13,682 bases of DNA from an uncultured Gemmatimonadota bacterium. GTDB lineage: Bacteria; Gemmatimonadota; Gemmatimonadetes; Gemmatimonadales; GWC2-71-9. The notes under the pieces were generated by a model. The model did no database searches. It was not told the DNA's origin and saw nothing but the letters and a program-made list of their open reading frames with translations. The position numbers and the translations under genes were made by a program. This document shows positions 1-13,682 of this stretch, piece by piece. Position 1 is the stretch's first letter, and every line of letters begins with the position of its first letter. The stretch is from positions 1 through 13,682 of the forward strand of contig CAJVYZ010000013.1 of assembly GCA_913009915.1 (NCBI GenBank). Direction: 5' to 3'.

Positions 1-133
1 CCCCTACGATGTTCTGACCGGAGATGCCAACCCGGCCCTCTACGGGGTCCTTGTAGATGGCGGTGGTGATTTCACGCCCCCGAAAGGCCACTGTTCGAGG
101 GGCGCCGACGTTGATTGAGACGATCGAACTCAT
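1..133 (-). CDS. MOSC-domain protein, N-terminal part (cut by window edge)
   Basis: Reading the minus strand from ATG at 133 gives 44 codons open to the window edge. The start reads MSSIVSINVG and is followed by a basic FRGREI stretch, then the hallmark YKDPVEGRVGISGQN. This matches the N-terminus of stand-alone MOSC (molybdenum cofactor sulfurase C-terminal, YiiM-like) proteins, where a short strand and a K/R-rich turn lead into P-V-x-G-R-V. These are cytosolic proteins thought to bind sulfur or the molybdenum cofactor, often linked to detoxification of N-hydroxylated compounds. The catalytic Cys of the family lies further on and cannot be seen. No good Shine-Dalgarno precedes the ATG. It lies downstream of the MarR gene on the same strand, with a 235-bp gap, so regulation by that MarR is possible but not shown. 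Confidence 0.8.
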   Translation of the reverse strand, partial: MSSIVSINVGAPRTVAFRGREITTAIYKDPVEGRVGISGQNIVG

Positions 134-368
134 GGAATTGGTGGCCTGGGTGGTCCGTAGCGTCTATCTCGACGGAAGGGACTGACTCGCCAGGAATTGA
201 CCAAGTGGACATCTCCTCGGATGGGACGGGTTCCCAAGATTCAAGCGGCGTTCGATCGCCGACATTCCAAGTTCTTTTCGGGCTCGGACGATCTCCAGTG
301 CGGGCTCCGGGATGGATGCTGAATCTGGTGCGACCACCCGCTTTGGTACCTGCCGATCCGATCTGTGA
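134..368. other. intergenic stretch between MarR and MOSC genes; possible decayed coding sequence
   Basis: No convincing gene is present here. One minus-strand frame is open from the end of the MarR gene to a TAG at 166-164. It contains PALEIVRARKELG, faintly like the helix region of IS481-type transposases, but has no start, no catalytic residues and no continuation, so a decayed transposase piece is only a guess. A short hairpin (cggcg, loop ttcgat, cgccg) sits at 246-261 and lacks a T-tract. No promoter for the MOSC gene stands out. Confidence 0.2.
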
Positions 369-791
369 TCAATCCCAATCAGTGCTCAGGATTTCGCGCA
401 ACTGCGCAACCCGGGTGTCGCCGATTGCGGTCTCCAGTCGTGATTCGAGGTCGGCGAATACGTCCATGGCGACTCCGATGCTCCGCTTCCCCTTGGCGGT
501 GGGTCTGACCAATTTGGCGCGGCGATCAGAAGGATCGGAAACCAGGTGGACCAGCCCCTGGCGCTCGAGCCCTCTAACCAGCTCGTTGACGGCTTGGCGG
601 GTGACTCCGAGATTCCTTGCGAGGTCTGCTTGGCGCGAACCTGCGAATGCCAACTCGGCGAAAAGCAACGACTGGGCCGATGTGATATCCAGACCGAGCC
701 GGTCCGCCTGGGCGGCCCTCAGGGCATCGTCGAACCACCTGAACCGATCAAGCAATAGTCGGGCGAGGGGTGTAGGTATCACTTGCTTCAT
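369..791 (-). CDS. MarR-family transcriptional regulator
   Basis: This 140-residue protein has typical MarR length and layout. An N-terminal dimerisation helix (about 5-30) is followed by a winged helix-turn-helix: helix 2 near 52-60 (GSRQADLARN), recognition helix near 63-75 (VTRQAVNELVRGL), and a basic wing at 86-95 (DPSDRRAKLV). C-terminal helices then complete the dimer interface. MarR proteins bind palindromic operators as dimers and usually release DNA on binding a small ligand or on thiol oxidation. This one has no cysteine, which argues against thiol sensing. The ATG at 791 is used because the fold is complete from there. A perfect TTGTCA/TGACAA inverted repeat lies 10 bp upstream, implying autoregulation. 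It is divergent from the copper ATPase operon and upstream of the MOSC gene. Its ligand is unknown. Confidence 0.9.
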   Translation of the reverse strand: MKQVIPTPLARLLLDRFRWFDDALRAAQADRLGLDITSAQSLLFAELAFAGSRQADLARNLGVTRQAVNELVRGLERQGLVHLVSDPSDRRAKLVRPTAKGKRSIGVAMDVFADLESRLETAIGDTRVAQLREILSTDWD

Positions 792-800
792 CTTAGTGGT

Positions 801-819
801 TTGTCAAGACACCTGACAA
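801..819 (-). promoter_or_regulatory. probable MarR operator/promoter (inverted repeat)
   Basis: TTGTCA at 801-806 and TGACAA at 814-819 form a perfect 6-bp inverted repeat with a 7-bp centre, 10 bp before the marR ATG. Read on the minus strand, each arm resembles a -35 hexamer (TTGTCA at 819-814, TTGACA at 807-802). A weak -10 candidate, CTAAGA at 796-791, follows the outer arm with a 17-bp spacing, which would give a leaderless or nearly leaderless mRNA. Position and symmetry suggest autorepression; binding is inferred. Confidence 0.5.
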
Positions 820-858
820 TGGACGGTCGGAGCCGGGCGCCGCATCCGAAAATCCTCC

Positions 859-890
859 TTGACATTCCACCCGACTGGAAGGCGTAGGGT
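859..890 (+). promoter_or_regulatory. MerR-type metal-responsive promoter, copy 1 (copper ATPase operon)
   Basis: The -35 TTGACA (859-864) and -10 TAGGGT (885-890) are separated by exactly 20 bp, longer than the 16-18 bp of ordinary sigma-70-type promoters. The spacer holds a dyad, TTCCA (865-869) and TGGAA (876-880). An overlong spacer containing a dyad is the hallmark of promoters activated by MerR-family metal sensors (CueR, ZntR, MerR), which untwist the DNA. The same layout recurs at 6466, 7456 and 7203(-). Transcription would start near 897, leaving a leader of about 75 nt before the ATPase ATG at 972. Confidence 0.8.
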
Positions 891-971
891 CTGATGATTG
901 CAAAGAAGTTGTAGGAAAACTTGGTCTGACCGCGAGTCGACCAGGCGCAAGCGAAATGGAAGGAGACGATC

Positions 972-3419
972 ATGAGAGATCCTGTATGTGGGATGGAGGT
1001 GAGCGAGGACTCGCTCACCATCGACGGCTACCCGGACGTAGGGTTCTGTTCAGACCACTGCCGGAGTGCATTCGTGGACGAGCCGCAGAAATACCTCGAC
1101 GGCGACGTAGCCGCCGAGTCGGGCAGCGCGGTTCTGGAGATGGAGGCACCCTCCCCCAGGTTCGGTGAACAAGAGACGATCCATCTGGCGATTGATGGAA
1201 TGACATGTTCGTCCTGCGTCACGACGATCGAGCGAGCTTTGGTGTCCACCCCAGGTGTGGTGGACGCGAGAGTGAATTTTGCGTCTGAAGAGGTCACGGT
1301 CGAGGCACAAGACGTACCCATCGAAGTCCTGACCGCGGCGGTGGCCGACGCGGGCTATTCAGCCCGGCCCCTGGACGATGAGGATGATGGGGACGCGGAA
1401 GCCGAGGCCAGGGAGCGGCTCTACCGAACGCTGCTTCAGAAGTTCTGGTTTGCGGCGATCGTGTCCCTCCCGGTGATTTACTTCTCCTACCCGGAGTTGT
1501 TTCCCGGGATACCGGCCAAAGGTTCCACGGCGCTGAATCTCATTTGGGGTGCGATGGCGTTGCTGACGTTGCCCGTGATGCTGTGGGCCGGTTCTCAGTT
1601 CTACACGGGGGCCTGGGCCGCGTTCAAACACCGGTCGGCCAACATGTACACCCTGATCGCCACTGGGATCACTGCAGCCTGGACCTATTCGGCTACGGCG
1701 CTCTTGTTCCCTGGATTGTTTCCAGAAGAACGCCTGCGGGACGTTTTCTTTGACGTGACCGCAGTGGTCACAGCCTTGGTCGTGCTTGGCATGGCCTTGG
1801 AGATTCGAGCCAGGGCCAAAACATCTGAGGCCCTCAAGAAACTGATCGGTATGCAGGCCAAGACCGCTCGTATCGTGCGCGACGGCCAAGAAATCGATGT
1901 CCCGATCGAAGACGTCGTGGTCGGAGACACGATCGTGGTTCGCCCTGGGGAAAAGATTCCCGTGGACGGCCAGGTACTGAGCGGTGCTTCGGCCGTCGAC
2001 GAGTCAATGGTGACCGGCGAACCGATTCCTTCAGAGAAGGTGACCGGCGACCCGGTTATTGGGTCCACTATCAACAAAACGGGAAGCTTTCGGTTCGAGG
2101 CCACGAGGGTTGGCAAGGACACCATGCTGTCCCAGATCATTCGCATGGTCCGGGAGGCCCAGGGATCCAAGGCGCCTATTCAGCGCACCGTGGACAAGGT
2201 CGCCAGCTACTTCGTTCCTGCGGTGATGATCATCGCGGTGTCGACGTTCATGGTCTGGTATACGTTCGGTCCCTCGCCTGCTCTGCTCTACGCAGTGATC
2301 ACTACGGTGACCGTGCTGGTCATAGCGTGTCCATGCGCATTGGGGCTTGCAACTCCGACCTCATTGATGGTCGGGATCGGCAAGGGCGCCGAGAACGGAA
2401 TCCTGATCAAGTCAGGTGATGCGCTGGAAACGGCCCACCGAATCACGACCGTGGTGCTCGACAAGACCGGCACCGTGACCATGGGCCAACCGTCGTTGAC
2501 CGACGTAATCGTGATGGGTGAGGTCGACGAGGACAAGCTGTTGATGCTGGCGGCCTCGGCCGAACGGGCGTCTGAGCACCCTCTCGGTGAGGCGATCGTC
2601 GGTGGGGCGCATCAGCGAGGCCTGAACCTGCGAGACCCGGAAACGTTCCTGGCGACCCCAGGACACGGAATCTCGGCGACCATCGATGACCACCTGGTGG
2701 TTCTTGGCAACCTCAAATTCATGGCCGACCAGGGGATCGGGGCCGGAGCTGCCGAATCCGTCCTGGAAGGTCTGGCGGATGAAGGCAAGACAGCCATGGT
2801 GGTCGGAGTAGATGGCGAACTTGCCGGCGTCGTCGCCGTGGCCGACACAATCAAAGAAGACTCGGTAGCTGCGATACAGCGGATGCATGACCTTGGCCTC
2901 GAGGTGGCGATGCTCACCGGTGACAACATCCGTACCGCCAAGGCCATCGGTGCCAAGGTAGGTATAGATCGCATCCTCGCGGAGGTCCTCCCAGAGGACA
3001 AGGCCAACGAGGTGTCAAAGCTGCAGGGCGAGGGCAAGGTGGTCGCGATGGTCGGAGACGGCATCAACGACGCACCAGCCCTGGCTCAGGCAGACGTTGG
3101 CTTGGCAATGGGAACCGGTACGGACGTCGCCATGGAATCGGGCGACATCACGTTGGTGAAGGGAAGCCTGACCGGAGTCGTGACCGCCATCGAGCTGTCG
3201 CAGGCGACCATGCGCAACATCCATCAGAACCTGGTGGGCGCCTTCGCCTACAACACGCTCGGTATACCGGTAGCCGCCGGGGTTTTCTTCCCATTCTTCG
3301 GCCTGCTGCTCAGCCCGCTCCTTGCCGGCGCAGCCATGGCGTTCTCATCGGTGACCGTGGTCACCAACGCCAACCGGTTGCGCTCTTGGGAGCCCTCAAT
3401 CAAGGAGGAGACAGTGTGA
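972..3419 (+). CDS. copA: Cu(+)-exporting P1B-type ATPase with N-terminal YHS and HMA domains
   Basis: This 815-residue inner-membrane pump exports monovalent copper at the cost of ATP. An N-terminal YHS domain (about 1-45, Cys6, Cys26, Cys30; opens RDPVCGM) is followed by one heavy-metal-associated domain with GMTCSSC (76-82). Next come the membrane helices, the actuator loop TGE (348-350), the ion-site CPC (453-455), phosphorylation motif DKTGT (497-501), nucleotide-binding HP (536-537), TGDN (649-652) and GDGIND (695-700). The last helices carry YN (760-761) and MAFSS (789-793), the signature of Cu(+)-selective P1B-1 pumps. All catalytic residues are present and the length is normal plus the YHS extension. 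The ATG at 972 has AAGGAG at 960-965, six bases away. It is first in an operon behind the MerR-type promoter at 859 and its stop overlaps the cupredoxin start. Silver is the likely alternative substrate. Confidence 0.96.
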
Positions 3420-3790
3420 TGAATGTACTACTCGTAAACCTGGGCGGGCTCGGGGTGATCGGACTGATCGTCTGGTACTTCTGGCTTTCGTCCAGTTCAG
3501 GCACGGCCGCCGTGGTTACGGCGGGAGGTGTCCAGGAGACCAAGGTGATTGTGAAGGGCGGATACTCGCCCGACACGATCAGGGTCGAAGCCGGCCGCCC
3601 GGTACGGCTCCTGTTCGACCGCCGGGAAGCGGATCCATGTTCGGAAAGGGTCGTGTTCGACGCCTTCGGTGTCTCTGCGGAGCTACCCACCGGTACCGAG
3701 GTGCCGGTCGAGTTCACTCCGACCGAACCCGGCGAGTACGAATTTGCTTGCCAGATGGGCATGTTGAAGGGAAAGGTGATCGTGTCATGA
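3419..3790 (+). CDS. membrane-anchored cupredoxin-domain protein
   Basis: This 123-residue protein has one N-terminal hydrophobic segment (about 4-24), a short Ser/Gly/Ala linker, and one cupredoxin_1-type beta sandwich (about 38-123). Candidate copper ligands are Cys74 in the DPCSERVVF turn and the C-terminal FACQMGM loop (Cys111, Met113, Met115), a pattern seen in cupredoxin domains that accompany copper ATPases. It probably sits on the outer face of the cytoplasmic membrane, accepting, buffering or oxidising copper delivered by the pump. The ATG at 3419 overlaps the TGA of the ATPase gene (GTGTGATG), and AAGGAGGAG lies about 10 bases upstream inside that gene. The in-frame GTG at 3416 is a possible but less likely start. 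Tight coupling supports a shared role in copper handling. Confidence 0.88.
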   Translation: MNVLLVNLGGLGVIGLIVWYFWLSSSSGTAAVVTAGGVQETKVIVKGGYSPDTIRVEAGRPVRLLFDRREADPCSERVVFDAFGVSAELPTGTEVPVEFTPTEPGEYEFACQMGMLKGKVIVS

Positions 3791-4026
3791 AACGCAAAAC
3801 AGATCGAGCCGCCCAAGGTCCTGGTTGGGATGAGCTCCTCGTCTGGTGCCCAACAGACGACTCGCCGCTGGTAAGCGGCGAGTCGGCAGGGGAGAACCCC
3901 AAAAGTGCATCTGGTACCGGTGGCGATCGGGAGGGGGCGGTCCGTCGCCGAAAAAACAGACGCCGCCGGCGACACGTGTCGTCTCCCTCCGGGAAGAGTG
4001 CAGACTCGCTTGGGGGTGAGGCATGA
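3787..4026 (+). CDS. small basic hypothetical protein (coding status uncertain)
   Basis: A 79-codon frame starts at an ATG overlapping the TGA of the cupredoxin gene (ATGA) and ends in a TGA overlapping the ABC ATPase start (ATGA). Coupling at both ends is what argues for it being a gene. The product is hydrophilic, with one Cys near position 21, Gly/Ser-rich, and carries a strongly basic run at about 51-62 (RRRKNRRRRRH). I see no domain or signal peptide and do not recognise the family. Against it, the same DNA forms a perfect 11-bp hairpin at 3858-3885 and a 7-bp hairpin at 3944-3973, so it may be a structured mRNA spacer whose open frame is incidental. Confidence 0.45.
   Translation: MKRKTDRAAQGPGWDELLVWCPTDDSPLVSGESAGENPKSASGTGGDREGAVRRRKNRRRRRHVSSPSGKSADSLGGEA
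3858..3885 (+). repeat. perfect 11-bp inverted repeat (hairpin) inside the copper operon
   Basis: CGACTCGCCGC (3858-3868) pairs perfectly with GCGGCGAGTCG (3875-3885) across a TGGTAA loop. The stem is GC-rich and no T-tract follows, so it is not a standard intrinsic terminator. It could act as an mRNA stability or attenuation element between the ATPase/cupredoxin genes and the ABC genes. Confidence 0.75.
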
Positions 4027-4742
4027 AGCCGACTACCACCGGTCAGGGGGCCACCGACCAGAGCGCCGTCGTCCAGAGCGCCGTCGGCGCTCTGGACGAA
4101 ATCACCGGTTTGCCGGTGGTGCTGGAAGCTCAGCAGGTCACCAAGACCTACCGGCGTGGATGGCGCCGAACCGAGAATCAGGTTCTGACCGGGGCCGATC
4201 TCACGATCCAGGCAGGAGAGATCGTCGGGTTGGTCGGTGAGAACGGATCCGGCAAATCGACACTGATGAAGATCCTGGTCGGTTCGCTCGAAAGCGACGG
4301 TGGTCGGGTGGAGATGCGCGGCAGCTTTGGATATTGCCCTCAGGAGCCGCTCCTCTACGAGCGACTCACGTGTGACGAGCACTTCGAGCTGTTCGGCGAG
4401 GCATACGGTCTCGATCGGAGCGTCATCGACCGAAACCGTGACGATCTCTACAAGATGTTCAGCTTCGGTCGCTACCGCGATATGCGGGTCGAGGAACTTT
4501 CAGGCGGGACCAGAGCCAAGCTCAATCTGGGTCTGGCCCTGCTGCACGATCCGGACGTCCTGCTCCTCGACGAACCATATGCGGGCTTCGACTGGGATAC
4601 TTACCTGCGCTTTTGGGACCTGGCCGCTGAACGTCGCGACGCGGGTCGGGCGGTTCTGATCATCAGCCATTTCGTCGCCGACGAGGAACGATTCGACCGG
4701 ATCGTTCATTTGCGTGACGGGAAGGCGGTTGCCCGATGGTGA
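4023..4742 (+). CDS. ABC transporter ATP-binding protein
   Basis: This 239-residue cytoplasmic ATPase subunit powers the permease encoded next. Walker A is GENGSGKST (72-80), the Q-loop is YCPQEP (Gln107), the signature is LSGGT (159-163), Walker B ends in LLLDE (Asp183, Glu184), and the switch histidine is His216. All catalytic residues are present. The first 30 or so residues precede the ABC fold and are partly encoded by a 15-bp tandem repeat, so translation may in fact begin later; ATG 4023 is favoured by its ATGA overlap with the previous frame. The subfamily resembles ABC-2-type exporters, including the NosF-like group that works with copper enzymes. The substrate is not readable from sequence. 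Its place behind copA and a cupredoxin suggests a role in copper homeostasis or in maturing or exporting an envelope component. Confidence 0.92.
   Translation: MKPTTTGQGATDQSAVVQSAVGALDEITGLPVVLEAQQVTKTYRRGWRRTENQVLTGADLTIQAGEIVGLVGENGSGKSTLMKILVGSLESDGGRVEMRGSFGYCPQEPLLYERLTCDEHFELFGEAYGLDRSVIDRNRDDLYKMFSFGRYRDMRVEELSGGTRAKLNLGLALLHDPDVLLLDEPYAGFDWDTYLRFWDLAAERRDAGRAVLIISHFVADEERFDRIVHLRDGKAVARW
4058..4099 (+). repeat. tandem 15-bp repeat ending in a perfect 14-bp inverted repeat
   Basis: The unit CCAGAGCGCCGTCGT occurs twice in tandem from 4058 (the second copy diverges at its end). Its second copy forms a stem with the following bases: TCGTCCAGAGCGCC (4069-4082) pairs perfectly with GGCGCTCTGGACGA (4086-4099) across a GTC loop. 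It lies 46 bases after the ABC ATPase ATG and encodes a repeated QSAV. A stem this strong so near a start could slow early elongation or mark a recent local duplication. No T-tract follows. Confidence 0.75.
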
Positions 4743-6238
4743 CCGCACGACTCACTGGACGCTACCTGGCCGAATATTCCCGCCGCCCGGTCAACCTGGC
4801 GCTGCTGGTATTGGTTCCTCTGGTCTTCGTCGTGCTCGCCTCCGGGGCGATCACAGATTTCGCCGAGATCGTCGGCGGGGTGGGAGATGCTGGCCAGCTC
4901 GCCGCCCCAACCGCGGGATGGGCCGCGGCGTTCCTCTCAGGCGTTGCCGGGTTCTTCCATGTGCTCGGGTCTCGCGACACGGATCGCCGGCTCGCCAACG
5001 CCGGGATGGGCGCGTGGCGGATCACCGTTGCGCGTCTCGCTTCGGGATTGGCGTTGGCGTTGCTCGCCTCAGGGACCGCGATCATTGCTCTGGCTTTGCG
5101 GGCGGGGATCGCGGATCCGGTTCGGACCATCACCGGAACCGTCATGTTCGCAGTCATCTATCTTGGGATCGGGGTTGCCGTCGGTTCCTTGGTGAGCAAC
5201 GATGTCAATGGATCACTGATCGTGATCTTCGTCTGGATGCTCGACGTCTTTCTCGGGCCGGCCATGGCTGGTACCAGTGTTGGGATCAGCCGGGTGTTCC
5301 CCTCCTACTACGTCACCCTGTTCGTGCTCGGCGACCCTGGGGTCCAGACGGGTCCCATGGGCGACCTCGGGTGGGCACTGGTGTGGACCGTTGGCGCCCT
5401 CGGTCTGGCCGTGGCGCTGTTCGCCGCCGCGACTGCTACCCGGCGAAACGTCTGGCGTCTGACCAAGCCGGTTGGAACCAGCTGGGGTCGCATCAAAGCG
5501 GGGATTCGCTACGGCCTGCGCGACCACCGTCGCAACGTTGCGCTGTGGGTGCTGCTCGTCGTTCTGCCGGCTCTCTTCATCTCTCTCAGCTTCTACATCA
5601 CCCCTGAGGAGCCCACCCCCGTGGAACTCGTCGAGGGCGGTGTCGCACAGATCCAGACCCTGTCGATGGTCGACGTACATGGCGCGATCATGGTCCCGAT
5701 CACGATTGCGTTCTTGGCAGGGCTGGCCGGCCTCTTCGTCGTCCAGGGGTCCCTGGAGGGCGACGCTCGTCTCACGCTGGCGGGATTTCGTCCTCGCGAG
5801 ATCCTCGTCTCCCGGCTGGGGGTCATCGCTATCGCCGGCCTGCTCACCACCGTGGTGTCCCTGGCTGTCACCGCCATCGACTTCACTCCGCAGAGCTGGG
5901 CCTGGTTCACGGTCGGGAACGCGCTGGTGGCAGCCACCTACGGGATGGTCGGCGTCCTCATCGGTGCCGTGTTCGGGCGGCTCGGGGGCCTCTACCTTAT
6001 GTTCCTCCTGCCGTTCATCGATGTCGGGATAGGCCAGAACATCATGTTTTCCGCCGCACCCCCTGGTTGGGGAAATGTCCTACCCGGCCGCGGGGCTGTC
6101 CAGGTCCTCGTTGACGGTGCCTTCACACCCACCTTCGATCAGGTAGGCGGCCTGATGCTCGCGATCGCCTGGCTCGTTGCACTTGGCCTGGCGGCCGCGG
6201 CCGTGGTCAACCGCATTGCCGAGCCAAAAAGGGCGTGA
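4736..6238 (+). CDS. ABC-2-type transporter permease, tandemly duplicated (about 12 TM)
   Basis: This 500-residue integral membrane protein has about six hydrophobic segments in each half (near 20-40, 62-78, 100-122, 131-153, 160-178, 210-232; and 267-288, 317-337, 360-382, 392-412, 418-436, 470-490). The halves are visibly related: GSRDTDRRLANAG at 78-90 matches GSLEGDARLTLAG at 338-350, each followed by an I-x-V-(A/S)-R-L step, and the helix with Asp170 matches the one with Asp429. One polypeptide therefore supplies both transmembrane halves for a dimer of the preceding ATPase. The ATG overlaps the ATPase stop by 7 bases. It is the last gene of the copper operon; no clear terminator follows. 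Substrate unknown. No cysteine is present. Confidence 0.85.
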   Translation: MVTARLTGRYLAEYSRRPVNLALLVLVPLVFVVLASGAITDFAEIVGGVGDAGQLAAPTAGWAAAFLSGVAGFFHVLGSRDTDRRLANAGMGAWRITVARLASGLALALLASGTAIIALALRAGIADPVRTITGTVMFAVIYLGIGVAVGSLVSNDVNGSLIVIFVWMLDVFLGPAMAGTSVGISRVFPSYYVTLFVLGDPGVQTGPMGDLGWALVWTVGALGLAVALFAAATATRRNVWRLTKPVGTSWGRIKAGIRYGLRDHRRNVALWVLLVVLPALFISLSFYITPEEPTPVELVEGGVAQIQTLSMVDVHGAIMVPITIAFLAGLAGLFVVQGSLEGDARLTLAGFRPREILVSRLGVIAIAGLLTTVVSLAVTAIDFTPQSWAWFTVGNALVAATYGMVGVLIGAVFGRLGGLYLMFLLPFIDVGIGQNIMFSAAPPGWGNVLPGRGAVQVLVDGAFTPTFDQVGGLMLAIAWLVALGLAAAAVVNRIAEPKRA

Positions 6239-7664: not shown

Positions 7665-7811
7665 ATGGCTGTCAAGGATCCCATATGTGGGATGACGATC
7701 GAGGAGACTGACGCGGTCGGAAAGAGCGACTACGAGGGTAAGACCTACTACTTCTGTTCGATGGATTGCAAAGAGGAGTTCGACTCCAACCCAGACGACT
7801 ACGCCGACTGA
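7665..7811 (+). CDS. stand-alone YHS-domain protein
   Basis: This 48-residue protein is just one YHS domain. It opens MAVKDPICGM and has Cys8 plus the pair Cys32 and Cys36 in YYFCSMDCKEEF, ending NPDDY. YHS domains are treble-clef-like, cysteine-containing modules found in copper and mercury pumps and believed to bind or transfer soft metals. The sequence parallels the YHS domain at the N-terminus of the copper ATPase in this window (RDPVCGM, FCSDHC). The ATG at 7665 has GGAAGGAG about 7 bases upstream. The stop is separated from the GTG of nuoA by a single base, so the two are almost surely co-transcribed and coupled. Likely role: cytosolic metal buffer or delivery factor for the complex encoded downstream; that role is inferred. 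Confidence 0.9.
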   Translation: MAVKDPICGMTIEETDAVGKSDYEGKTYYFCSMDCKEEFDSNPDDYAD

Positions 7812-7812
7812 C

Positions 7813-8166
7813 GTGGCGTTGCTCGGGTCCGCACTGGCTGTCTTCCTCGCCGCCGTGTTGGCGGTCGGCATGACGCGCTGGGTTGGTGATGTCCTCAACC
7901 CGCTGGCCTTGACCGTCTCCGAGAAGGTCCCTTTCTCCGGCGGGTCGCCGCCGGATTTTCACGCTTGGAACCGGTTCCACATCCGCTGGTACACCATGGC
8001 TCTGCTGTTCCTCGCCTTCGACATGGAGATGGTCTTCATGTATCCGTGGGCGGTGGTGTTCGTGCGGGAGGGGCTGATTTCGCCGGTGGAGATGCTGATG
8101 TTCATCCTCATCCTGTTGGTCGGCATTGTCTACGCCTGGCGTGAACGCGGGTTCGAGTGGGCGTAA
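7813..8166 (+). CDS. nuoA: NuoA-like subunit of a complex I-type assembly
   Basis: This 117-residue membrane protein has three hydrophobic segments (about 5-25, 60-83, 92-108) in the NuoA pattern. The family core is recognisable as NRFHIRWYTMALLFLAFD followed by MEMVFMYPWAVVF, keeping the acidic F-D-x-E pair in the second helix. However, the loop that in NuoA normally carries Y-E-C-G reads EKVPFSGG: the conserved Cys and the Glu before it are missing. That loop helps form the quinone-cavity entrance in complex I. The start is GTG 7813, one base after the YHS stop and without its own ribosome binding site, so translation is coupled. The stop overlaps the next gene by 10 bases. Confident as a NuoA homologue, not as part of a quinone-reducing enzyme. 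Confidence 0.88.
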   Translation: MALLGSALAVFLAAVLAVGMTRWVGDVLNPLALTVSEKVPFSGGSPPDFHAWNRFHIRWYTMALLFLAFDMEMVFMYPWAVVFVREGLISPVEMLMFILILLVGIVYAWRERGFEWA

Positions 8167-9446
8167 GGGAGGCTCTTGCCGGATTGGCCCGATGGAGCCC
8201 CGTTCCCGTATTCCCCATCGTTGGGGGTGGTGCCCGCGATCTGGTGAGGGACCTTCGGTTGCGGCCCGAAGTCGAGCTGGTGGCCACCCCGCGCCATGCC
8301 ACATTGTTGCTGGTGGCCGGGCGGTTTCCCTCCGGAGCCATTCCGGGGCTGGCCGTCGTCCACGATCAGATACCTGTCCCGCGAGCCACCGTGCGCTGGA
8401 ATGGGGAGGTCAGCGACGAGATCTCGTCGGCGCGGCTGGTCGGCGGCGACGAAGAAGATTTGATCGCCACCCTGGTCGCTCTCCACCGAGAGATGATGGC
8501 GGATCCGAGCCGCTCTGGGCCACCCATTCTCCCTGACGTCGATGCCGTCGAGTGGCGTGGGGTCGGCCCCTACGGGCACGGTGGCAAGGGTATGACAGGT
8601 GGCACCCCATACGGGCGACCCCTGGCGGAGCGAGCCGGCGATCGTGACGGAATAGAACTCGACCAACTTCCCGTGACCATCGGACCCTGGGTGGGCGCCC
8701 TCCCATGGGGCCTGGAGCTTGCGGTGAAGCTACAGGGTGACCTCGTTCAGGAGGTCGAGGTGGGACCTCGGCTCTCAACCGACCCACCAACCGATGTTTT
8801 CTCGATGGCGACGCGTAAGCCAATGACGGTGGCAGTCCTCGAGTTGGAACGCGCCCGCCACCACCTCCGCTGGCTGGCGGATGCCCTCTCGATCCAAGGG
8901 CTTTCCGCCCTCGGTCTCCGGGCATTGCGTCTTGGCAAGATCCTCACCCCCCACCACCAGCGGGAGGTCAGGCGGTTGCTGGCGATGGTCCGGCGCAGTG
9001 GGATCTTTGGTCTCGCATTGAACCGGGCCGGGGGGGAAGTGACCGGGTCCCAGGCAAAGGGTTTGGGTCCGGTTGCTCGGGCCGGGGGCGTCGATGACGA
9101 CGCCAGGCGCGATGAGCCTGCCTACCGGGAGTTGGGCTTTCAAACGATTCTCCACCAGAAGGGAGATGCGGCCGCGCGGTGGCGTCAGCGCATGGCCGAG
9201 GTGACCCAGTCGCTCGACCTCTCCGACAGAGCGGGGGACCGGACTGCCTTCGGGGCCGGGCTGGTCGAAGGCCCCCGAGGTCGGATCACCGCGAACGGGC
9301 CATCGCCGTCGGTCGTCGTTCTCGATCTGTTGCCTCAGTTGCTCTCCGGTTTGGAGTGGGGCGACGCCGTCTCGTTGGTGTGGAGTCTCGACATCGATCC
9401 CACCGAGAGCGTGGAGACCCATGTGGACAATCGGGGTGCCTCGTGA
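8157..9446 (+). CDS. cysteine-free NuoB-NuoD-like fusion protein
   Basis: This 429-residue soluble protein looks like NuoB joined to NuoD, with NuoC missing. Residues 1-115 follow NuoB: TPRHATLLLVAG (44-55) and VVHDQIPVPR (67-76) match the 'PRxADxLxVxG' and 'xYDQMPxP' stretches, but the tandem-Cys site reads GGG (23-25) and every N2-cluster Cys is absent. A Gly-rich linker (137-150) leads to the NuoD-like part from about 168: TIGPWVGALPWG replaces GPQHPxxHG (both His lost), the HRG/VDY region with the quinone Tyr is deleted, and the late NuoD pattern LGPVARAGGVDDDARR / GDAAARWRQRMAEVTQSL is clear, ending SLVWSLDID (compare IGSIDIVLGEVDR). The whole protein has no cysteine. It probably caps NuoH without electron transfer. 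Relation to Ehr-type (hydrogenase-related) subunits is the alternative; the nuoA neighbour favours complex I ancestry. Start GTG 8157. Confidence 0.8.
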   Translation: MGVREALAGLARWSPVPVFPIVGGGARDLVRDLRLRPEVELVATPRHATLLLVAGRFPSGAIPGLAVVHDQIPVPRATVRWNGEVSDEISSARLVGGDEEDLIATLVALHREMMADPSRSGPPILPDVDAVEWRGVGPYGHGGKGMTGGTPYGRPLAERAGDRDGIELDQLPVTIGPWVGALPWGLELAVKLQGDLVQEVEVGPRLSTDPPTDVFSMATRKPMTVAVLELERARHHLRWLADALSIQGLSALGLRALRLGKILTPHHQREVRRLLAMVRRSGIFGLALNRAGGEVTGSQAKGLGPVARAGGVDDDARRDEPAYRELGFQTILHQKGDAAARWRQRMAEVTQSLDLSDRAGDRTAFGAGLVEGPRGRITANGPSPSVVVLDLLPQLLSGLEWGDAVSLVWSLDIDPTESVETHVDNRGAS

Positions 9447-10360
9447 ACCCCCTGGTGGCGGTGGTGTTGATAGGGGTTGTCATGGTTGTCTCGGTTTACC
9501 TGGTGGCTGTTATCGACACCGCCGTCGAAACTCGAGTTTCCGGCGGGCGGGGCTATGCCAGGGCCTGGCTGGCTCCGATCTCGCGGGCCGCTCGACTTGC
9601 CCTGCAACGCCGTACCGTCACAGAGCGACCCGACGCCGAGGCCTGGGTTCTGGGACCTGCGCTGTTGGGCGGGCTGGCGGCGGTGGCGCTCACGTCCATC
9701 CCATTTGCCCCTGGCGTCGATGTCGCGGACATCCCCGCCGGGATCGTGCTGTTTGGGGCGGCACTCCTCCAGGTGATGGTGGCGGTGGTCCTCCACGGGT
9801 GGGGGGCAAACTCGGTGTTCCCCCTCCTCGGGGCGTTTCGCATGGCGGCCGTTGGCCTGTCCATGGGCATTCCGTTCTCCCTGGTACTGATCACCACCGC
9901 GATCCCCGCCGAATCGCTGTCGGTGGGTGCGATCATCGCCTCCCAAGAGGGCGTGTGGAACGTTCTACGCCAGCCGATTGGTCTCCCGGTCTATCTGATC
10001 ACGGCCCTCGGTTTCTCTTTCTGGGGTCCGCTGCAATTGCCTGACGGAGCCGATCTGGCGGGGGGAACCAGCGCAGAGATCTCCGGGACGGCGCTTCTGG
10101 TTTGGCGGATCGCCCGTGCCTCCATTTTGGTGTCCCTGGCGGCCATGGGAGCCGCGGCCTTTCTTGGCGGGTACCTGGGCCCGTGGCTACCCGGCTGGCT
10201 GTGGATGATCGTCAAGACGATGGGGCTGGCCGCTCTCATGATCTGGTCTGGTCACCGCATTGCCCGGGCAAGGATGGAATCGGTGGTCTTGTTGGGATGG
10301 ACGGTCCTGCTCCCCGTCGCCCTGGTCGACGTGTTCGTGTCGGGGGCGTTGACACTGTGA
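9443..10360 (+). CDS. nuoH: NuoH-like membrane subunit, degenerate at the quinone/E-channel
   Basis: This 305-residue protein has about eight hydrophobic segments. Homology to NuoH is clearest in the second half: GPLQLPDGADLAGG (195-208) corresponds to 'PFDLPEAExELVAG', TSAEISG (209-215) to 'HTEYSG', FLGGYLGP (240-247) to 'FLGGWxGP', and the end LLGWTVLLPVALV to 'RLGWKVLLPLAL'. Residues that matter in complex I are altered: the first-half 'ISYE' motif reads LSMGI (139-143), and the acidic PEAE is reduced to PDGA. NuoH normally anchors the peripheral arm and forms the quinone chamber and the start of the proton path. Start GTG 9443 overlaps the previous stop (GTGA), and its own stop overlaps nuoJ by 4 bases. 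nuoI, normally next, is absent. No cysteine. Confidence 0.85.
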   Translation: MNPLVAVVLIGVVMVVSVYLVAVIDTAVETRVSGGRGYARAWLAPISRAARLALQRRTVTERPDAEAWVLGPALLGGLAAVALTSIPFAPGVDVADIPAGIVLFGAALLQVMVAVVLHGWGANSVFPLLGAFRMAAVGLSMGIPFSLVLITTAIPAESLSVGAIIASQEGVWNVLRQPIGLPVYLITALGFSFWGPLQLPDGADLAGGTSAEISGTALLVWRIARASILVSLAAMGAAAFLGGYLGPWLPGWLWMIVKTMGLAALMIWSGHRIARARMESVVLLGWTVLLPVALVDVFVSGALTL

Positions 10361-10911
10361 ACCTGATCTCGGACATACTGTTTTGGGTGTTTTCGGTCGC
10401 CGCGGTGGTGACCGGGTTGCTGGTGTTCATCACTGACTCGATGGTGCGGGCCGCCTATTGGTTGATGGCCTCCTTCGTCGCCGTTGGGGGGATCTTGATG
10501 ATTCTCGACGCCCAGTTTCTGGGACTCATCCTGATCCTGATGATGGCGGGGGAAATGACGATCATGGCAATCTTCATGGTCATGTTCATGATGAACCCGG
10601 CGGGGCTCAACCCGATGACCATGGTTCATCAACACCGCACCTCCATCGTGGCGGGGGCCGGGGCCTTCGTGGCGTTGGCGGCCGTTGGGCTCCTCGCCGA
10701 ATTTCCGGACCGTCCCGTCCCGCCCGGTGTCGATCCCACGGTCGACCTCGGCGTCGAGCTGTTGGGAGAGTCGATGTTGATATTCGAGTCGGCCGGGGTG
10801 GCGTTGCTGGCTGTCATGATCGGCGCCGTGGCGCTGGTCTCCAAGCGGGGCCGTTACGGCATCGCCGAGGAGGGCTCAGAGGAGCCGTCATTGGAGATGA
10901 GCGAGGAATGA
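10357..10911 (+). CDS. nuoJ: NuoJ-like membrane subunit with methionine-rich helix
   Basis: This 184-residue protein has five hydrophobic segments (about 6-26, 33-50, 55-79, 95-115, 145-165) as in NuoJ. The conserved third-helix stretch, DAQFLGLILILMMAGEM (51-67), aligns with NuoJ 'AEFLAxxQxLVYAGAV', but carries Glu66 inside the helix where families usually have a small or aliphatic residue. It is followed by a dense run of methionines: Met62, 63, 67, 70, 74, 76, 78, 79, 87 and 89, then His91 and His93. In complex I this helix holds the pi-bulge that switches during turnover. GTG 10357 overlaps the nuoH stop (GTGA). The C-terminal 30 residues are acidic. The stop overlaps nuoK (ATGA). No cysteine. 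Confidence 0.87.
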   Translation: MNLISDILFWVFSVAAVVTGLLVFITDSMVRAAYWLMASFVAVGGILMILDAQFLGLILILMMAGEMTIMAIFMVMFMMNPAGLNPMTMVHQHRTSIVAGAGAFVALAAVGLLAEFPDRPVPPGVDPTVDLGVELLGESMLIFESAGVALLAVMIGAVALVSKRGRYGIAEEGSEEPSLEMSEE

Positions 10912-11213
10912 GCCTGGAGGCATTGCTCGTTGTGTCCGCCGCCCTCTTCGGAGTGGGTGTTTACGGGGCTTTGAGCCAGCAATCGTTCGTGATGATCATG
11001 ATGGGTCTCGAGCTGATGCTCAATGGGGCCATCCTGGCGGTCGTGGCCTTTTGGTGGGGAAGCACTGGTGGCAACCCCGAGGGTCAGTTGTTGGCGGTCG
11101 TGGTGTTGGCGGTGATGGCGATTGAGGCAGCGATCGGGTTCGCGCTGGTGGCGAACGTCTATCGGGTGCGAAAAGCCGACATCTCCGAGAAGTTGCGGAG
11201 GCTCCGGCACTGA
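10908..11213 (+). CDS. nuoK: NuoK-like antiporter-type subunit
   Basis: This 101-residue protein has three transmembrane helices and normal NuoK/MrpC length. Both membrane glutamates essential for proton translocation in NuoK are present: Glu35 in MMGLELMLNG and Glu73 in MAIEAAIGFAL. The C-terminal tail is basic (KLRRLRH). The ion path of this subunit therefore looks functional, in contrast with the degenerate NuoB/NuoD/NuoH-like parts. ATG 10908 overlaps the nuoJ stop (ATGA), and its TGA shares one base with the nuoL ATG. Confidence 0.93.
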   Translation: MSLEALLVVSAALFGVGVYGALSQQSFVMIMMGLELMLNGAILAVVAFWWGSTGGNPEGQLLAVVVLAVMAIEAAIGFALVANVYRVRKADISEKLRRLRH

Positions 11214-13129
11214 TGGTGTGGCTTCCGATTCTGTTCCCACTGGTCGGCGCAGCAGGCTTGTGGCTGCTGCGCCGGCATCGGTCACTGCTGGGCCCGGTCG
11301 CCGTTGCCTCCCTGGCAGGCGCTCTGGCGTCTGCGGTGGTGATCGCGATTTCCGGCGCCACTTTCACATGGAGCTGGGGAGCGGGAATCGACCTGACTCT
11401 GGCCGTGGAGGACGCAGGCCGGGTGATGGTGGTGCTGGTGCCCTTGGTGGCGGTCGCCGTGGTTCTTTTCGCCGCGTCGAGCCTGCGCGACGACCCGGCC
11501 TTGGCCCGGCTCCTGATACTCATGACCGCGTTTGTGGCAGCGATGGAAATGTTGGTGTTGGCCGCCGATTTCCTCACCCTGCTCATCGGCTGGGAGCTGG
11601 TCGGAGCCGCTTCCTGGGCGCTGATCGGCCATGACTGGCGAAACCCGCAGGCCCCGGCGTCGGCCAAAGAGGCGTTCATCACCACCCGTTTCGGGGATCT
11701 GGGGCTCTACGTCGCCGCCGGGGCAGCGTTTGCCGCCGTCGGGAGCTTCCAGTACTCCGACCTGGCCCAAAGTCCCGATTCCGGCTGGCTGGCCGTGGTG
11801 GCGGGAGGCGTCGTGCTGGCAGCGGCGGCAAAGTCTGCGCAACTGCCGTTCTCCCCGTGGCTGTTTTCGGCGATGGCCGGCCCCACGCCTGTCTCGGCAC
11901 TGCTCCACTCGGCCACCATGGTCGCCGCTGGCGCCTACGCCCTCATCCGCCTTCAACCCATCCTCTCCGAGGTGGTCTGGTTCGGTCCCCTCGTGGTGGG
12001 TCTGGGGCTGCTCACCGCGCTGGCCGGCGGGTTGGTTGCCTTCGCCCAGACCGACTTCAAGTTTGCCCTCGCCGGGTCCACCTCCGCCCAGTATGGGTTG
12101 ATGCTGGTGGCGACCGGCGCCGGCTACACAGCCGCCGGGATGGGCCAGCTCACTGCCCACGCCTTCTTCAAGGCCTTGCTGTTTCTGGGAGCCGGGGTCG
12201 CCCTCCATTCAGCTGGCACCCTGGACCTGGGGAAGCTCCGCCTGGGATCGAGCCTGCCCCGCATGGCCGCGCTGTTCGGGGTGGGGGCTGCCGCGTTGGC
12301 CGCGGTCCCACCGCTGGGTGCGGCGTTCACCAAGGAGACCGTGCTCGCCGCGGCAGTCCAGTCTGGCGTCTGGGTCGCGGCGGGGACCGTTGCCGCTGGT
12401 CTTCTTTCAGCGCTCTACGCCTCACGACTGCATCTCCTCGCCTATGGCCCTGGCCCGTTGATCGCAGCCAACCCCGGCCCCCATCGTGTGGAGATCGGAG
12501 CTCTGGCCATGCTCGCCGGTCTCACCCTGGCGCTGAGCATGATCTGGCTGCCAGGCGGCGAGGAGTTGTTGACCGAACTCACCGGCGGTTTGCTGGCGCC
12601 CGGCAAGCTCTGGGAACTCGGAATTTCGCTGGCAGCCATCGCCGTGGCGTTCGGGTTCGTGTGGTTGCTCTGGCGGCGGAATCGCCTGGTCGGCGGTGGC
12701 ATCCCTCAGAGGCTGCGCCGTTTCGTGGCCGACTGGTGGGGTATTCCTAACGCGACCCGGCGGGTGGTCGTCGATCCGCTGCTGCACCTATCTCGAGACC
12801 TGGCAGAGGGCGACCACTCGGTCATCGACGCGGTAGTGCGTGGCGCGGGAGCCGGGGCGATCGGTGTCGCCAAGCGGCTGCGGCGCAGGGTGGAAGCAGC
12901 CGTCGACCGAGCGGTTGAGGGAGTTGGTGGTGGAACACTGGGGGCGGCCCTCTTGTCGCGTAAGTTCGATGACGACGCGGTCGACGGCACCGTCGAAGGG
13001 ATTGCTCGCGGGGTCCGACTTGGTGGAGAAAAAAGTCAACGCATCCAGACCGGCATGTCTCACGACTACTACACGCTGGCGGTCGCCGGCACCGTGGTTG
13101 TGGTGATCGTGGCGGCGATATGGAGGTAG
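11213..13129 (+). CDS. nuoL: NuoL-like antiporter subunit
   Basis: This 638-residue membrane protein is of full NuoL length. Channel residues are retained: Glu128 in GWELVG, Lys207 in AKSAQLPFSPW, AMAGPTPVSALLHSATMV with His232, Lys283 in TDFKFALAGST, His316 and Lys320 in AHAFFKALLF, and Lys374 in FTKETV. After about 490 comes the long C-terminal part expected for the lateral helix and last helix of NuoL, with a repeated pattern: DHSVIDAVVRG (534-544) and DDDAVDGTVEG (586-596), then SQRIQTGMSHDYYTLAV (608-624), which matches the NuoL 'LQTGxVxxYAL' end. It should pump or exchange H+ (or Na+). Start ATG 11213 overlaps the nuoK stop. No cysteine. Confidence 0.94.
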   Translation: MVWLPILFPLVGAAGLWLLRRHRSLLGPVAVASLAGALASAVVIAISGATFTWSWGAGIDLTLAVEDAGRVMVVLVPLVAVAVVLFAASSLRDDPALARLLILMTAFVAAMEMLVLAADFLTLLIGWELVGAASWALIGHDWRNPQAPASAKEAFITTRFGDLGLYVAAGAAFAAVGSFQYSDLAQSPDSGWLAVVAGGVVLAAAAKSAQLPFSPWLFSAMAGPTPVSALLHSATMVAAGAYALIRLQPILSEVVWFGPLVVGLGLLTALAGGLVAFAQTDFKFALAGSTSAQYGLMLVATGAGYTAAGMGQLTAHAFFKALLFLGAGVALHSAGTLDLGKLRLGSSLPRMAALFGVGAAALAAVPPLGAAFTKETVLAAAVQSGVWVAAGTVAAGLLSALYASRLHLLAYGPGPLIAANPGPHRVEIGALAMLAGLTLALSMIWLPGGEELLTELTGGLLAPGKLWELGISLAAIAVAFGFVWLLWRRNRLVGGGIPQRLRRFVADWWGIPNATRRVVVDPLLHLSRDLAEGDHSVIDAVVRGAGAGAIGVAKRLRRRVEAAVDRAVEGVGGGTLGAALLSRKFDDDAVDGTVEGIARGVRLGGEKSQRIQTGMSHDYYTLAVAGTVVVVIVAAIWR

Positions 13130-13133
13130 AAGA

Positions 13134-13543
13134 ATGTTGAGTATCGCCATATTCGTGCCGGTTGTAGCGGCCGTCATCATGCTGGCGTTTCCCCGGGACC
13201 GACCCGAGCTTGCCCGCTGGACAGCGCTGGGAGTAAGCGGAGTCCCCTTTGTAGTGATTATCGCGGCCTGGGCGCGATTCGAGGGCGGCCCTGGGTTCGA
13301 GATGGTCGAATCCCTGCCGTGGATCCCCTCGATCGGGGTGTCCTATCAGGTCGGTCTCGACGGTCTGTCGCTGCCGCTGGTTGCCTTGACCGCCTTGTTG
13401 TTCACTGCCTCGATTGCCTTCCCCGTCGACCTGCGGGGCCGGGCCCGCCAGTACTACGCCGCCTTCCTGTTCCTAGAAGGTGTCTCGCTCGGGCTCTTCC
13501 TGTCGCTCGACCTCATTCTCTTCTTCGTGTTCTTTGACCTGTC
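13134..13543 (+). CDS. nuoM: NuoM-like antiporter subunit, truncated by assembly artefact
   Basis: About 136 genuine codons remain. The start MLSIAIFVPV, the LGLDGLSLPLVALT-type stretch (VGLDGLSLPLVALTALL, 73-89), YYAAFLFLEG (107-116) and DLILFFVFFDLS (126-137) follow NuoM in order. The conserved channel Glu of NuoM ('FWELMLIPM') is here Asp135. ATG 13134 is 4 bases after the nuoL stop and has GGAGG upstream. From 13544 the sequence is Illumina adapter, so the apparent stop at 13563-13565 is not biological; the real gene should continue for another 350 or so codons, probably followed by nuoN. Confidence 0.88.
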
Positions 13544-13601
13544 AGATCGGAAGAGCGTCGTGTAGGGAAAGAGTGTAGATCTCGGTGGTCGCCGTATCAT
13601 T
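13544..13601. other. Illumina P5/TruSeq adapter read-through (artefact)
   Basis: From 13544 the sequence begins AGATCGGAAGAGCGTCGTGT and ends GGTCGCCGTATCATT, the exact reverse complement of the 58-base Illumina TruSeq universal (P5) adapter. It interrupts the nuoM reading frame. It is a library-construction sequence, not part of the genome. Confidence 0.98.
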
Positions 13602-13682
13602 AAAAAAAAAAATCTACATCAAGATCATTATGTCTATTACTAGCTACTATCTGTCATGTGTCACGACATTGTTCCTTACTCC
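13602..13682. other. post-adapter poly-A and AT-rich junk
   Basis: Eleven A residues (13602-13612) follow the adapter, then about 70 bases of AT-rich sequence unlike the GC-rich remainder. This is typical of sequencer output beyond the end of an insert. No feature should be called here. Confidence 0.9.

Follow-up and report, generated by a model that had tools for sequence, protein, structure and literature searches.

What can a complex I-like operon do when it encodes none of the redox-cofactor subunits? This question is raised by a stretch of 13,682 nucleotides (hereafter, the window) from an uncultured Gemmatimonadota bacterium. A first-pass annotation, made from the sequence alone, had taken the operon for a distinct assembly free of redox cofactors, which either carries ions independently or ties their flow to a partner other than electrons. 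This interpretation is supported here: the operon copies form one clade, and the redox subunits are absent inside a conserved operon. A link to metals, which the annotation had not noticed, makes copper or another soft metal a candidate for the replacement of electrons.

Organization of the Operon

The window holds, in this order and all on the forward strand, genes for NuoA, a Cys-free B–D fusion, NuoH, NuoJ, NuoK, NuoL, and the start of NuoM, as had been annotated, with Pfam or NCBIfam matches for every membrane subunit. The first gene of the operon, yhs (7665..7811), had been missed; it encodes a 48-residue YHS-domain protein (PF04945, 4.2e-16; ATG and stop read), and its stop lies one base ahead of the GTG of nuoA. 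It is followed by a NuoA-like subunit of 117 residues (7813..8166; PF00507, 4e-26), the fusion of 429 residues (8157..9446), a NuoH-like subunit, whose GTG start was read (9443..10360; PF00146, 6e-40), a NuoJ-like subunit of 184 residues (10357..10911; PF00499, 4e-22), a NuoK-like subunit of 101 residues (10908..11213; PF00420, 1.7e-18), a NuoL-like subunit of 638 residues (11213..13129; PF00361, 1.2e-47), and the 5′ part of nuoM (13134..13543; NCBIfam NDH_I_M, 1e-32).

The earlier view of the operon as intact up to the contig break holds, apart from the missed first gene and the end of the 143-residue NuoM frame. The sequence from about 13544 onward is Illumina adapter, and the final residues of this frame are consequently an artefact; positions 13544..13682 (strand not assigned), with adapter read-through and unplaced sequence, lie outside the operon. 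Another contig of the same genome, C404, opens with a stretch shared with the window (78 of 80 nucleotides identical) and continues with the rest of nuoM, nuoN, and genes for a 108-residue protein and a FAD-type protein. With NuoN encoded there, none of the membrane subunits (A, H, J, K, L, M, N) is missing, and the locus is a nine-gene operon, yhs-A-BD-H-J-K-L-M-N, for a membrane complex of complex I ancestry.

The absence of the subunits C, E, F, G, and I had been claimed from the window, and it holds more widely: tblastn searches with C, E, F, G, and I of the host as queries gave no match within the operon in 26 complete chromosomal or MAG copies and 9 plasmid copies. The space between nuoH and nuoJ, where nuoI had been reported missing, does not contain this gene, the aligned ends being −1 to 47 nucleotides apart in 39 loci. 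Genes that could have spoken against the annotation downstream of nuoM (nuoI, nuoE–G, or a normal nuoB) were not found on C404. The host does have separate ordinary nuo genes, whose existence had been left as a question, in two clusters on other contigs: one of the 14-subunit type (C160) and one of the 11-subunit type (C632).

A Redox-Dead Cap

The 429-residue protein is a genuine B–D fusion. A profile of 25 fusion relatives matches solved NuoB chains at residues 40–82 (7.5e-8) and NuoD chains mainly at residues 270–363 (1.9e-13), and the predicted fold (pLDDT 87, pTM 0.86) matches the 49-kDa subunits of complex I. These profile and fold matches bear out the earlier description of a NuoB domain fused to NuoD, without NuoC. 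A Gly-rich linker (residues 134–157; 8556..8627, forward strand) is highly conserved, yet unstructured in the fold model, and a Rubrobacter relative carries heavy-metal-binding (HMBD) domains between its B and D parts.

In complex I, four Cys of NuoB bind cluster N2, and the His residues of the HPxxH motif of NuoD belong to the quinone site. All four Cys are missing in the fusions aligned to E. coli NuoB, the quinone-site His are replaced in the aligned relatives shown, and the segment preceding the quinone tyrosine has been lost. The fusion of the window contains no Cys at all, and the Cys-richest column among 70 relatives holds this residue in only 13; accordingly, no conserved column is available among them for the NiFe-site Cys of a hydrogenase large subunit, and the cap shows no succession of cofactor sites. 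With neither Fe-S ligands nor quinone histidines left, the cap is redox-dead.

The Membrane Arm

The membrane arm is complete and retains most of its charged pump residues, both lysines and glutamates. NuoL keeps all six key sites in 28 of 28 copies, and E36 of NuoK and D79 and E81 of NuoA are also retained. In NuoM, K234 is kept in 29/29 copies, but E144 is changed to Asp in 24 of them; similarly, NuoN keeps K217 in 27/27 copies, but E133 in only three of the 27. Several charges of NuoH are altered.

Distribution and Conservation

Among 7997 candidates sharing most words with the fusion, 840 proteins match it at E ≤ 1e-3, and a single genome scan yielded 37 operon loci, which is beyond chance. 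According to their titles, the MAG hosts are Acidimicrobiia, other Actinomycetota, Chloroflexi, and Gemmatimonadetes, and the plasmid hosts, with Halomonas sp. KO116 and Paracoccus sediminicola among them, are Pseudomonadota and Rubrobacter. The operon copies form one clade (100/100); the trees have long branches, and only monophyly is drawn from them. A literature search of titles and abstract beginnings returned no description of the B–D fusion, the operon, or its copper link, in keeping with the view that the fusion is not an already characterised subunit; the consulted part of a survey of Nuo variants (PMC12361115) mentions neither operon nor fusion.

A decaying or mis-assembled complex I might be suspected from the adapter at the contig end, from a Martelella copy of which NuoA and the beginning of the cap remain, and from a fragmented Vreelandella copy. 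Against this stand the 26 chromosomal or MAG and 9 plasmid copies, which have all eight genes and of which one belongs to a single-contig genome, as well as the single clade and its invariant motifs. Conservation across phyla leads us to reject this explanation, to which we attach a negligible probability, and the annotation had likewise judged that a complete operon of this kind, now also known from plasmids, does not look like decay.

Linkage to Copper Genes

The copper link of the operon is strong. Upstream in the window, on the forward strand, lie genes for a P-type ATPase that carries YHS-like and HMA domains and scores closest to the copper type (972..3419), and for a cupredoxin-like protein (3419..3790; PF13473, 2.3e-21). 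Around 41 copies, up to a distance of 10 kb, HMA was found 7 times (expected ≤0.58), CsoR 5 times (0.45), and DUF326/Csp 3 times (0.07), whereas 70 other nuoD-family places used as a control gave 0, 1, and 0, respectively; the linkage thus exceeds expectation, control included, although around 28 of the 41 copies none of the three lies within this distance. On plasmids of cultured bacteria, 8 of the 11 copies read are near copper-resistance genes (cop genes or multicopper oxidases), and the other three plasmids show no annotated copper gene. CueR is annotated beside the Roseivivax, Acuticoccus, and Martelella copies, and of six neighbouring ATPases that were scored, five come closest to copper types.

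Copper may not be the only metal, since the regulators at loci L039 and L075 score best as Zn or Cd/Pb types, that at L126 is of the ArsR type, and the ATPase at L049 is of the Zn/Cd type. The same machine could on these grounds serve a soft or heavy metal other than copper (Ag, Cd, Zn, Pb, or Hg), or several, and Met and His also bind Ag(I). We regard this as improbable in view of the CueR genes, the copper genes adjoining 8/11 plasmid copies, and the scores of the ATPases.

Cupredoxins, cytochromes c, and multicopper oxidases near some copies would also fit a role of copper as redox carrier, in which Cu(I)/Cu(II) in the YHS protein or the Met-rich region replaces the Fe-S clusters and electron flow still drives pumping. 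The losses at the quinone site, both of its histidines and of the segment before the tyrosine, and a cap with no visible chain of cofactor sites make this very unlikely.

Metal-Binding Modules and Methionine Enrichment

A metal-binding partner is encoded in the operon itself, either as YHS or as HMBD within plasmid caps. The YHS protein of the window retains the DxxC and CxxxC of a Cu-sensing YHS domain, and a related YHS domain works as a Cu2+ switch (PMC4626032); a PDB search with it gave no match below E 0.02. A YHS gene precedes nuoA in 37 of 43 non-plasmid loci, and its position is occupied by a CsoR-, Csp- or ArsR-type gene in three others. The YHS motif is missing from 6/43 non-plasmid and from 11/11 plasmid loci, and none was found around ordinary nuo genes in 34 loci. 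Among 118 neighbour proteins, YHS is the commonest Pfam domain (15), followed by zf-FCS (9, overlapping YHS), with all others at 5 or fewer. The HMBD motif is present in 6 of the 9 complete plasmid caps (Pfam HMBD in both of those scanned), and the remaining three have His-rich NuoJ tails.

The E-channel of complex I is formed by A, J, and K, together with part of H. In the operon, A, J, and K share about 21 conserved Met at positions where ordinary complex I mostly differs. Columns with at least 90% Met number 13 in J, 6 in A, and 5 in K, compared to 1, 0, and 1 in ordinary complex I; the excess of K by itself is weak (P=0.11). The remaining subunits show no such excess (H 0/0, L 2/7, M 0/2, N 0/0, family/ordinary), and NuoH is not Met-rich. 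In the TM2 segment of NuoA (7996..8040, forward strand), conserved Met 62, 71, 73, and 76 alternate with the acidic D70 and E72, and the TM3 segment of NuoJ (residues 62–79; 10540..10593, forward strand) holds conserved Met 62, 63, 67, 70, 74, 76, 78, and 79. This Met ladder is retained in distant and plasmid copies. Five of the eight NuoJ Met fall within 80 degrees on one helix face, and random positions do likewise in 16% of trials (P=0.16), for which reason no common face is claimed. The NuoJ fold model is of low confidence (pLDDT 65, pTM 0.49) and was left out of the reading. No path was traced through the full membrane thickness.

A Candidate Copper Translocator

The reading that we favour on the sequence evidence, and hold to be more probable than not, is that the complex handles a soft metal, with Cu(I) the likeliest, in place of electron transfer. 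It would be a proton-coupled Cu(I) translocator that has the membrane arm of complex I as its scaffold and probably works as an exporter. As to how it would work, we give about even chances to a proton-driven Cu(I) pump, with a Met-lined E-channel in place of the quinone/proton route and the former Fe-S cap now receiving metal from YHS or HMBD. Cu(I) would come from a metal-binding module in the cytosol, which is YHS here and HMBD or a His-rich segment in other copies, and be handed on to what was once the quinone cavity, between the cap and NuoH/A/J. The Met-rich region of A, J, and K would then admit the ion into the membrane, with TM3 of NuoJ as a putative gate, and proton flow through L, M, and N would power the step, resulting in proton-coupled Cu(I) export. 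Export is preferred to import because the neighbouring CopA-type ATPases, CsoR/CueR-type regulators, and multicopper oxidases belong to excess-copper responses.

Alternatively, copper might not be carried at all: the complex could be a copper-gated proton/cation antiporter, whose L/M/N arm is opened or shut in metal stress by sensing through YHS or HMBD and the Met-rich region. The Mrp antiporters are a precedent for antiporter-type subunits that function without redox partners, and the pump residues of NuoL are fully retained. A YHS domain can, moreover, be a switch rather than a carrier (PMC4626032). Nevertheless, a sensor needs neither some 21 conserved membrane Met in A/J/K nor multiple HMBD copies and long His-rich stretches, and we consider gating unlikely, if more plausible than a different metal.

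Relation to Known Systems and Implications

With complex I (Nuo/NDH-1, also in its 11-subunit form, which has no E, F, or G), the candidate Cu(I) translocator shares the subunits A, B, D, H, J, K, L, M, and N as homologues, in the same order, and the key residues of NuoL and NuoK; in one midpoint-rooted tree, whose branches are long, its NuoJ falls with that of the 11-subunit type. Unlike complex I, it lacks C, E, F, G, and I, fuses B to D without the N2 Cys or quinone His, and adds Met-rich A/J/K and a YHS or HMBD partner. The Mrp (CPA3) antiporters also have antiporter-type subunits without redox cofactors, and the NuoL-like subunit matches MrpA models at a lower score; however, the operon has NuoA, NuoH, and a B–D cap, and its best matches are complex I subunits. 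MBH, MBS, FHL, and Ehr resemble it in their B, D, H, and antiporter modules, with MBH subunit alpha and FHL subunit 5 among the matches of the fusion profile, but conserved Cys that could hold a NiFe site or an Fe-S cluster are lacking in its cap. Copper resistance systems (P1B ATPases, Cus, CueO/CopA oxidases, Csp) have in common with the operon YHS, HMA or HMBD domains, Met/His-rich segments, and CueR/CsoR-type neighbours, whereas its scaffold is the membrane arm of complex I and not an ATPase, an RND pump, or an oxidase.

Several subunits of the operon carry the annotation of ordinary NADH-quinone oxidoreductase subunits, and surveys of complex I can be misled by this. It has long been asked how electron transfer in complex I drives proton pumping at a distance, and a natural relative with most of the membrane machinery and a metal-linked cap makes coupling testable without electrons; since plasmids of cultured marine bacteria carry the operon, such tests are practical. 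If the proposal is true, the operon would represent a new way for bacteria to handle copper and a new type of machine, in which the long-range coupling of complex I links protons to a metal ion with no electrons involved.

Operon Composition and Distribution

The window spans one entire contig of a fragmented host genome (638 contigs, 78% complete). Open frames and HMM scans bear out the gene set proposed by the first-pass annotation (nuoA, a B-D fusion, nuoH, nuoJ, nuoK, nuoL and a 5' portion of nuoM), preceded by an overlooked first gene, yhs (7665–7811, forward strand), which encodes a 48-residue YHS protein and ends one base before nuoA. Genuine sequence stops near 13543; the stretch at 13544–13682, which gives NuoM an artificial end, consists of what we take to be Illumina adapter and of unplaced sequence. 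Host contig C404 begins with the terminal stretch of the window (78 of 80 nucleotides identical) and carries the remainder of M, nuoN (477 residues), a 108-residue protein that matches no Pfam family, and a FAD-type protein. Thus, the operon reads A-BD-H-J-K-L-M-N, and nuoM is followed by these genes instead of nuoI, nuoE-G or a normal nuoB. Two separate, ordinary nuo clusters are also present in the host: a 14-subunit type that runs to the end of C160 (A and C–J identified, B not called), and one of the 11-subunit type on C632 (A–D and I–N identified, H not called). Between a CopA-like/cupredoxin pair and the operon, the window encodes an ABC ATPase and an ABC-2-like permease (4023–6238); a similar ATPase lies upstream in locus L076.

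The fusion has at least 840 protein matches at E ≤ 1e-3 (best 120 of 840 listed), the closest named one among the matches listed being from an Acidimicrobiia MAG. A single scan of genome contigs yielded 37 loci, titled as Acidimicrobiia, other Actinomycetota, Chloroflexi/Dehalococcoidia/Anaerolinea, Gemmatimonad, and one Cyanobacteria MAG. Already known copies included, the family occurs in 14 of 396 whole genomes sampled from the window's phylum and in 5 of 301 from the phylum of a Chloroflexi-titled genome, and full-length matches are found in 4 of 59 close relatives (G000–G058, the window's own genome counted). Most of these relatives hold two NuoJ genes, as expected if each has two clusters for ordinary complex I, and those having the operon hold three or four. 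One copy (L123) lies in a single-contig genome of 4.6 Mb.

The eight genes are complete and ordered in 26 loci. H adjoins J in all 39 loci showing both, and C, E, F, G and I have no match within the operon in any of the loci, in agreement with the initial claim that E, F, G and I are missing and that no nuoI separates H from J; the weak matches that such subunits do give are kilobases distant (L033, L057). Trees of NuoH and NuoL had been proposed at that stage, and that of NuoL, together with one of NuoJ, places the family on one branch with 100/100 support (34 of 51 rows for NuoL, 38 of 72 for NuoJ). Genome G450 has two copies (L030, L032) on separate contigs. Locus L051 holds a second, partial M plus N after the first set (16197–19953), due to duplication or an assembly fault, and an N run at the expected place of A, while in L052 a divergent 11-subunit-type nuo cluster (1–3031, reverse strand; A–D and H seen) lies beside the operon start.

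The B-D Fusion

The family profile of the 429-residue fusion, or cap (8157–9446, forward strand), matches NuoB and NuoD chains of solved structures, and its AlphaFold model (pLDDT 87, pTM 0.86) resembles 49-kDa subunits, with a best E of 8e-8 and a TM of about 0.4–0.5; both results uphold the assignment. Alignment with E. coli NuoB, E. coli NuoCD and two host NuoD proteins reveals that the four cluster-N2 cysteines are absent, and the richest cap column has Cys in 13 of the 70 sequences, which sustains the early description of a cysteine-less NuoB domain. The HPxxH histidines and a tyrosine of NuoD have quinone-site roles; in the same alignment, the histidines are absent from the cap and the tyrosine segment is deleted. 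Judging from its sequence, the cap is redox-dead. The Gly-rich linker joining B and D (residues 134–157) is strongly conserved but modelled without structure, suggesting that it folds on a partner.

Charged Residues and Methionines of the Membrane Arm

Among the pump residues, NuoL retains E144, K229, H254, K305, K342 and K399 in all 28 sequences, and NuoN retains K217 (27/27) and K395 (26/27), with E133 kept in 3 of 27 only. In NuoM, K234 and H348 are invariant (29/29), E144 is replaced by D in 24 and kept in 5, and E407 is kept in 23 of 29. NuoH keeps E228 and has D for E220 (35/35 each), with E36, R37, D63, E157 and others lost or variable. NuoK E36 (45/45), NuoK E72 (44/45) and NuoA E81 (51/51) are conserved, and NuoA D79 is kept in 44 and replaced by E in 7.

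Columns with at least 90% Met were compared between the family and ordinary complex I sequences from relatives and E. coli. They number 13 versus 1 in NuoJ (32 and 34 sequences), 6 versus 0 in NuoA (37 and only 5) and 5 versus 1 in NuoK (31 and 33), compared with 0/0 in H, 2/7 in L, 0/2 in M and 0/0 in N; setting aside the one J and two K columns in which Met also predominates in ordinary complex I leaves 21. Mean Met content is likewise higher in J (7.8 versus 3.2%), A (6.0 versus 2.2%) and K (7.8 versus 5.2%), and lower in H, L, M and N. When distant and plasmid copies are counted as well, Met occupies nine NuoJ sites besides M72 in 45 or 46 of 46 sequences, three sites of NuoA in 51/51 (a fourth in 45), and three of NuoK in 45/45 (a fourth in 39). 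Two His are conserved in A and one in J. Under a naive model, NuoJ has an excess of Met in its conserved columns (12 of 59, P = 3e-7), with P = 0.012 for A and P = 0.11 for K. A one-sided helix face of Met is not significant (P = 0.16), and no continuous Met route through the membrane is shown. The NuoJ methionines cluster in TM3 around the position of E. coli Y59; according to PMC10212512, a pi-bulge in this helix gates the central axis in complex I, whose E-channel comprises A, J, K and part of H.

Association with Metal-Related Genes

In 37 of 43 non-plasmid loci having upstream DNA, a YHS motif lies 5' of nuoA; it does so in 0 of 11 plasmid loci, and 34 ordinary nuo loci (160,669 b in total, mostly short stretches around nuoJ) contain no such motif. 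The YHS domain of an M. phlei cyclase, as described in PMC4626032, is a Cu2+ switch whose ligands are probably Asp and three Cys, and its DxxC and CxxxC spacing is identical to that of the operon protein. Six non-plasmid loci lack YHS. Three of them have, directly upstream, a CsoR/RicR-like repressor (L123), a DUF326/Csp-like Cys-rich protein (L125) or an ArsR-type metalloregulator (L126), the RicR and Csp1 NCBIfam matches being below model cut-offs and the corresponding Pfam matches above theirs; no clear counterpart is seen there in L056, L063 and L127. CsoR-type genes also occur immediately 3' of N (L029) and before yhs (L061), and a Csp-like gene before yhs (L051).

Within 10 kb of 41 copies in 42 genomes (those in G460 and G463 left out), HMA proteins are found near at least 7 copies among the matches listed (expected at most 0.58, P = 3e-6), the CsoR family near 5 (expected 0.45, P = 1e-4) and DUF326/Csp near 3 (expected 0.07, P = 6e-5), compared with 0 (among the matches listed), 1 and 0 around 70 nuoD-family places elsewhere in these genomes. 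At least 13 of the 41 copies have one or more of the three nearby, and 28 have none among the matches listed. Five of six neighbouring ATPases scored are closest to copper types; that of L049 is closest to Zn/Cd types, and MerR-type neighbours of L039 and L075 score best, below cut-off, with Zn or Cd/Pb types. Two distant copies share similar small c-type cytochromes 3' of N in the same direction (L123:19286–19654 and L124:3089–3499), followed in L124 by a protein that looks by eye like a cupredoxin and lacks an NCBIfam match.

Plasmid copies were found by tblastn in 19 records, 11 of which were examined. Copper genes lie within the 12–14 kb flanks of eight: Halomonas sp. KO116 (copC, copD, azurin, two-component system, multicopper oxidase, copB), Roseivivax marinus (cueR, P-ATPase, HMA, multicopper oxidase), Rubrobacter marinus (four-helix copper protein, metal-sensitive regulators, P-ATPase, multicopper oxidase), Acuticoccus (cueR, P-ATPase, copper oxidase), Sulfitobacter faviae (multicopper oxidase, copB), Nitratireductor (multicopper oxidase, CopD), Roseovarius indicus (copB, multicopper oxidase, plastocyanin) and Martelella (cueR, P-ATPase, multicopper oxidase). 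No annotated copper gene occurs in these flanks in Paracoccus, Thioclava and Vreelandella. All eight subunits are matched in nine copies, with none of C, E, F, G or I inside the operon; a NuoG-like match lies some 11 kb downstream in two records, the Halomonas one being a formate dehydrogenase. Matches are fragmentary in Vreelandella, and the Martelella mediterranea plasmid (L144) retains only nuoA and the cap start beside an ISL3 transposase, still adjoined by cueR and a heavy-metal P-ATPase. The cap is short, with a reduced D part, in Roseivivax (302 residues) and Acuticoccus (289 residues), and Rubrobacter H is short as annotated. The motif CPM[HD]P occurs one to five times per cap in six of nine plasmid caps, and Pfam HMBD is called in both of those scanned; in Rubrobacter, the HMBDs are placed between the B and D parts. 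The three copies without the motif (Halomonas, Roseivivax, Acuticoccus) hold His-rich NuoJ tails.

Proposed Function and Place among Known Systems

Neighbouring genes, partner domains, fused domains and the Met pattern all point to copper or a similar soft metal, a link that is very probable. Passage of the metal through the Met region of A, J and K, coupled to protons, is a reading that we favour slightly, and export rather than import is proposed more tentatively. From the positions of the motifs, the metal would enter via YHS or HMBD, the former quinone cavity and then NuoJ TM3, the sidedness of this route being taken from known complex I structure.

The complex lacks the defining cofactors and quinone site of complex I, differs from Mrp in the presence of H, A and B-D, and its cap has none of the metal ligands that define the hydrogenases, so that the combination stands apart from all three, as first supposed. 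It is best called a previously undescribed variant within the complex I superfamily; no description was found in the open-access papers searched. If copper pumping is shown, this complex would be a new kind of machine.
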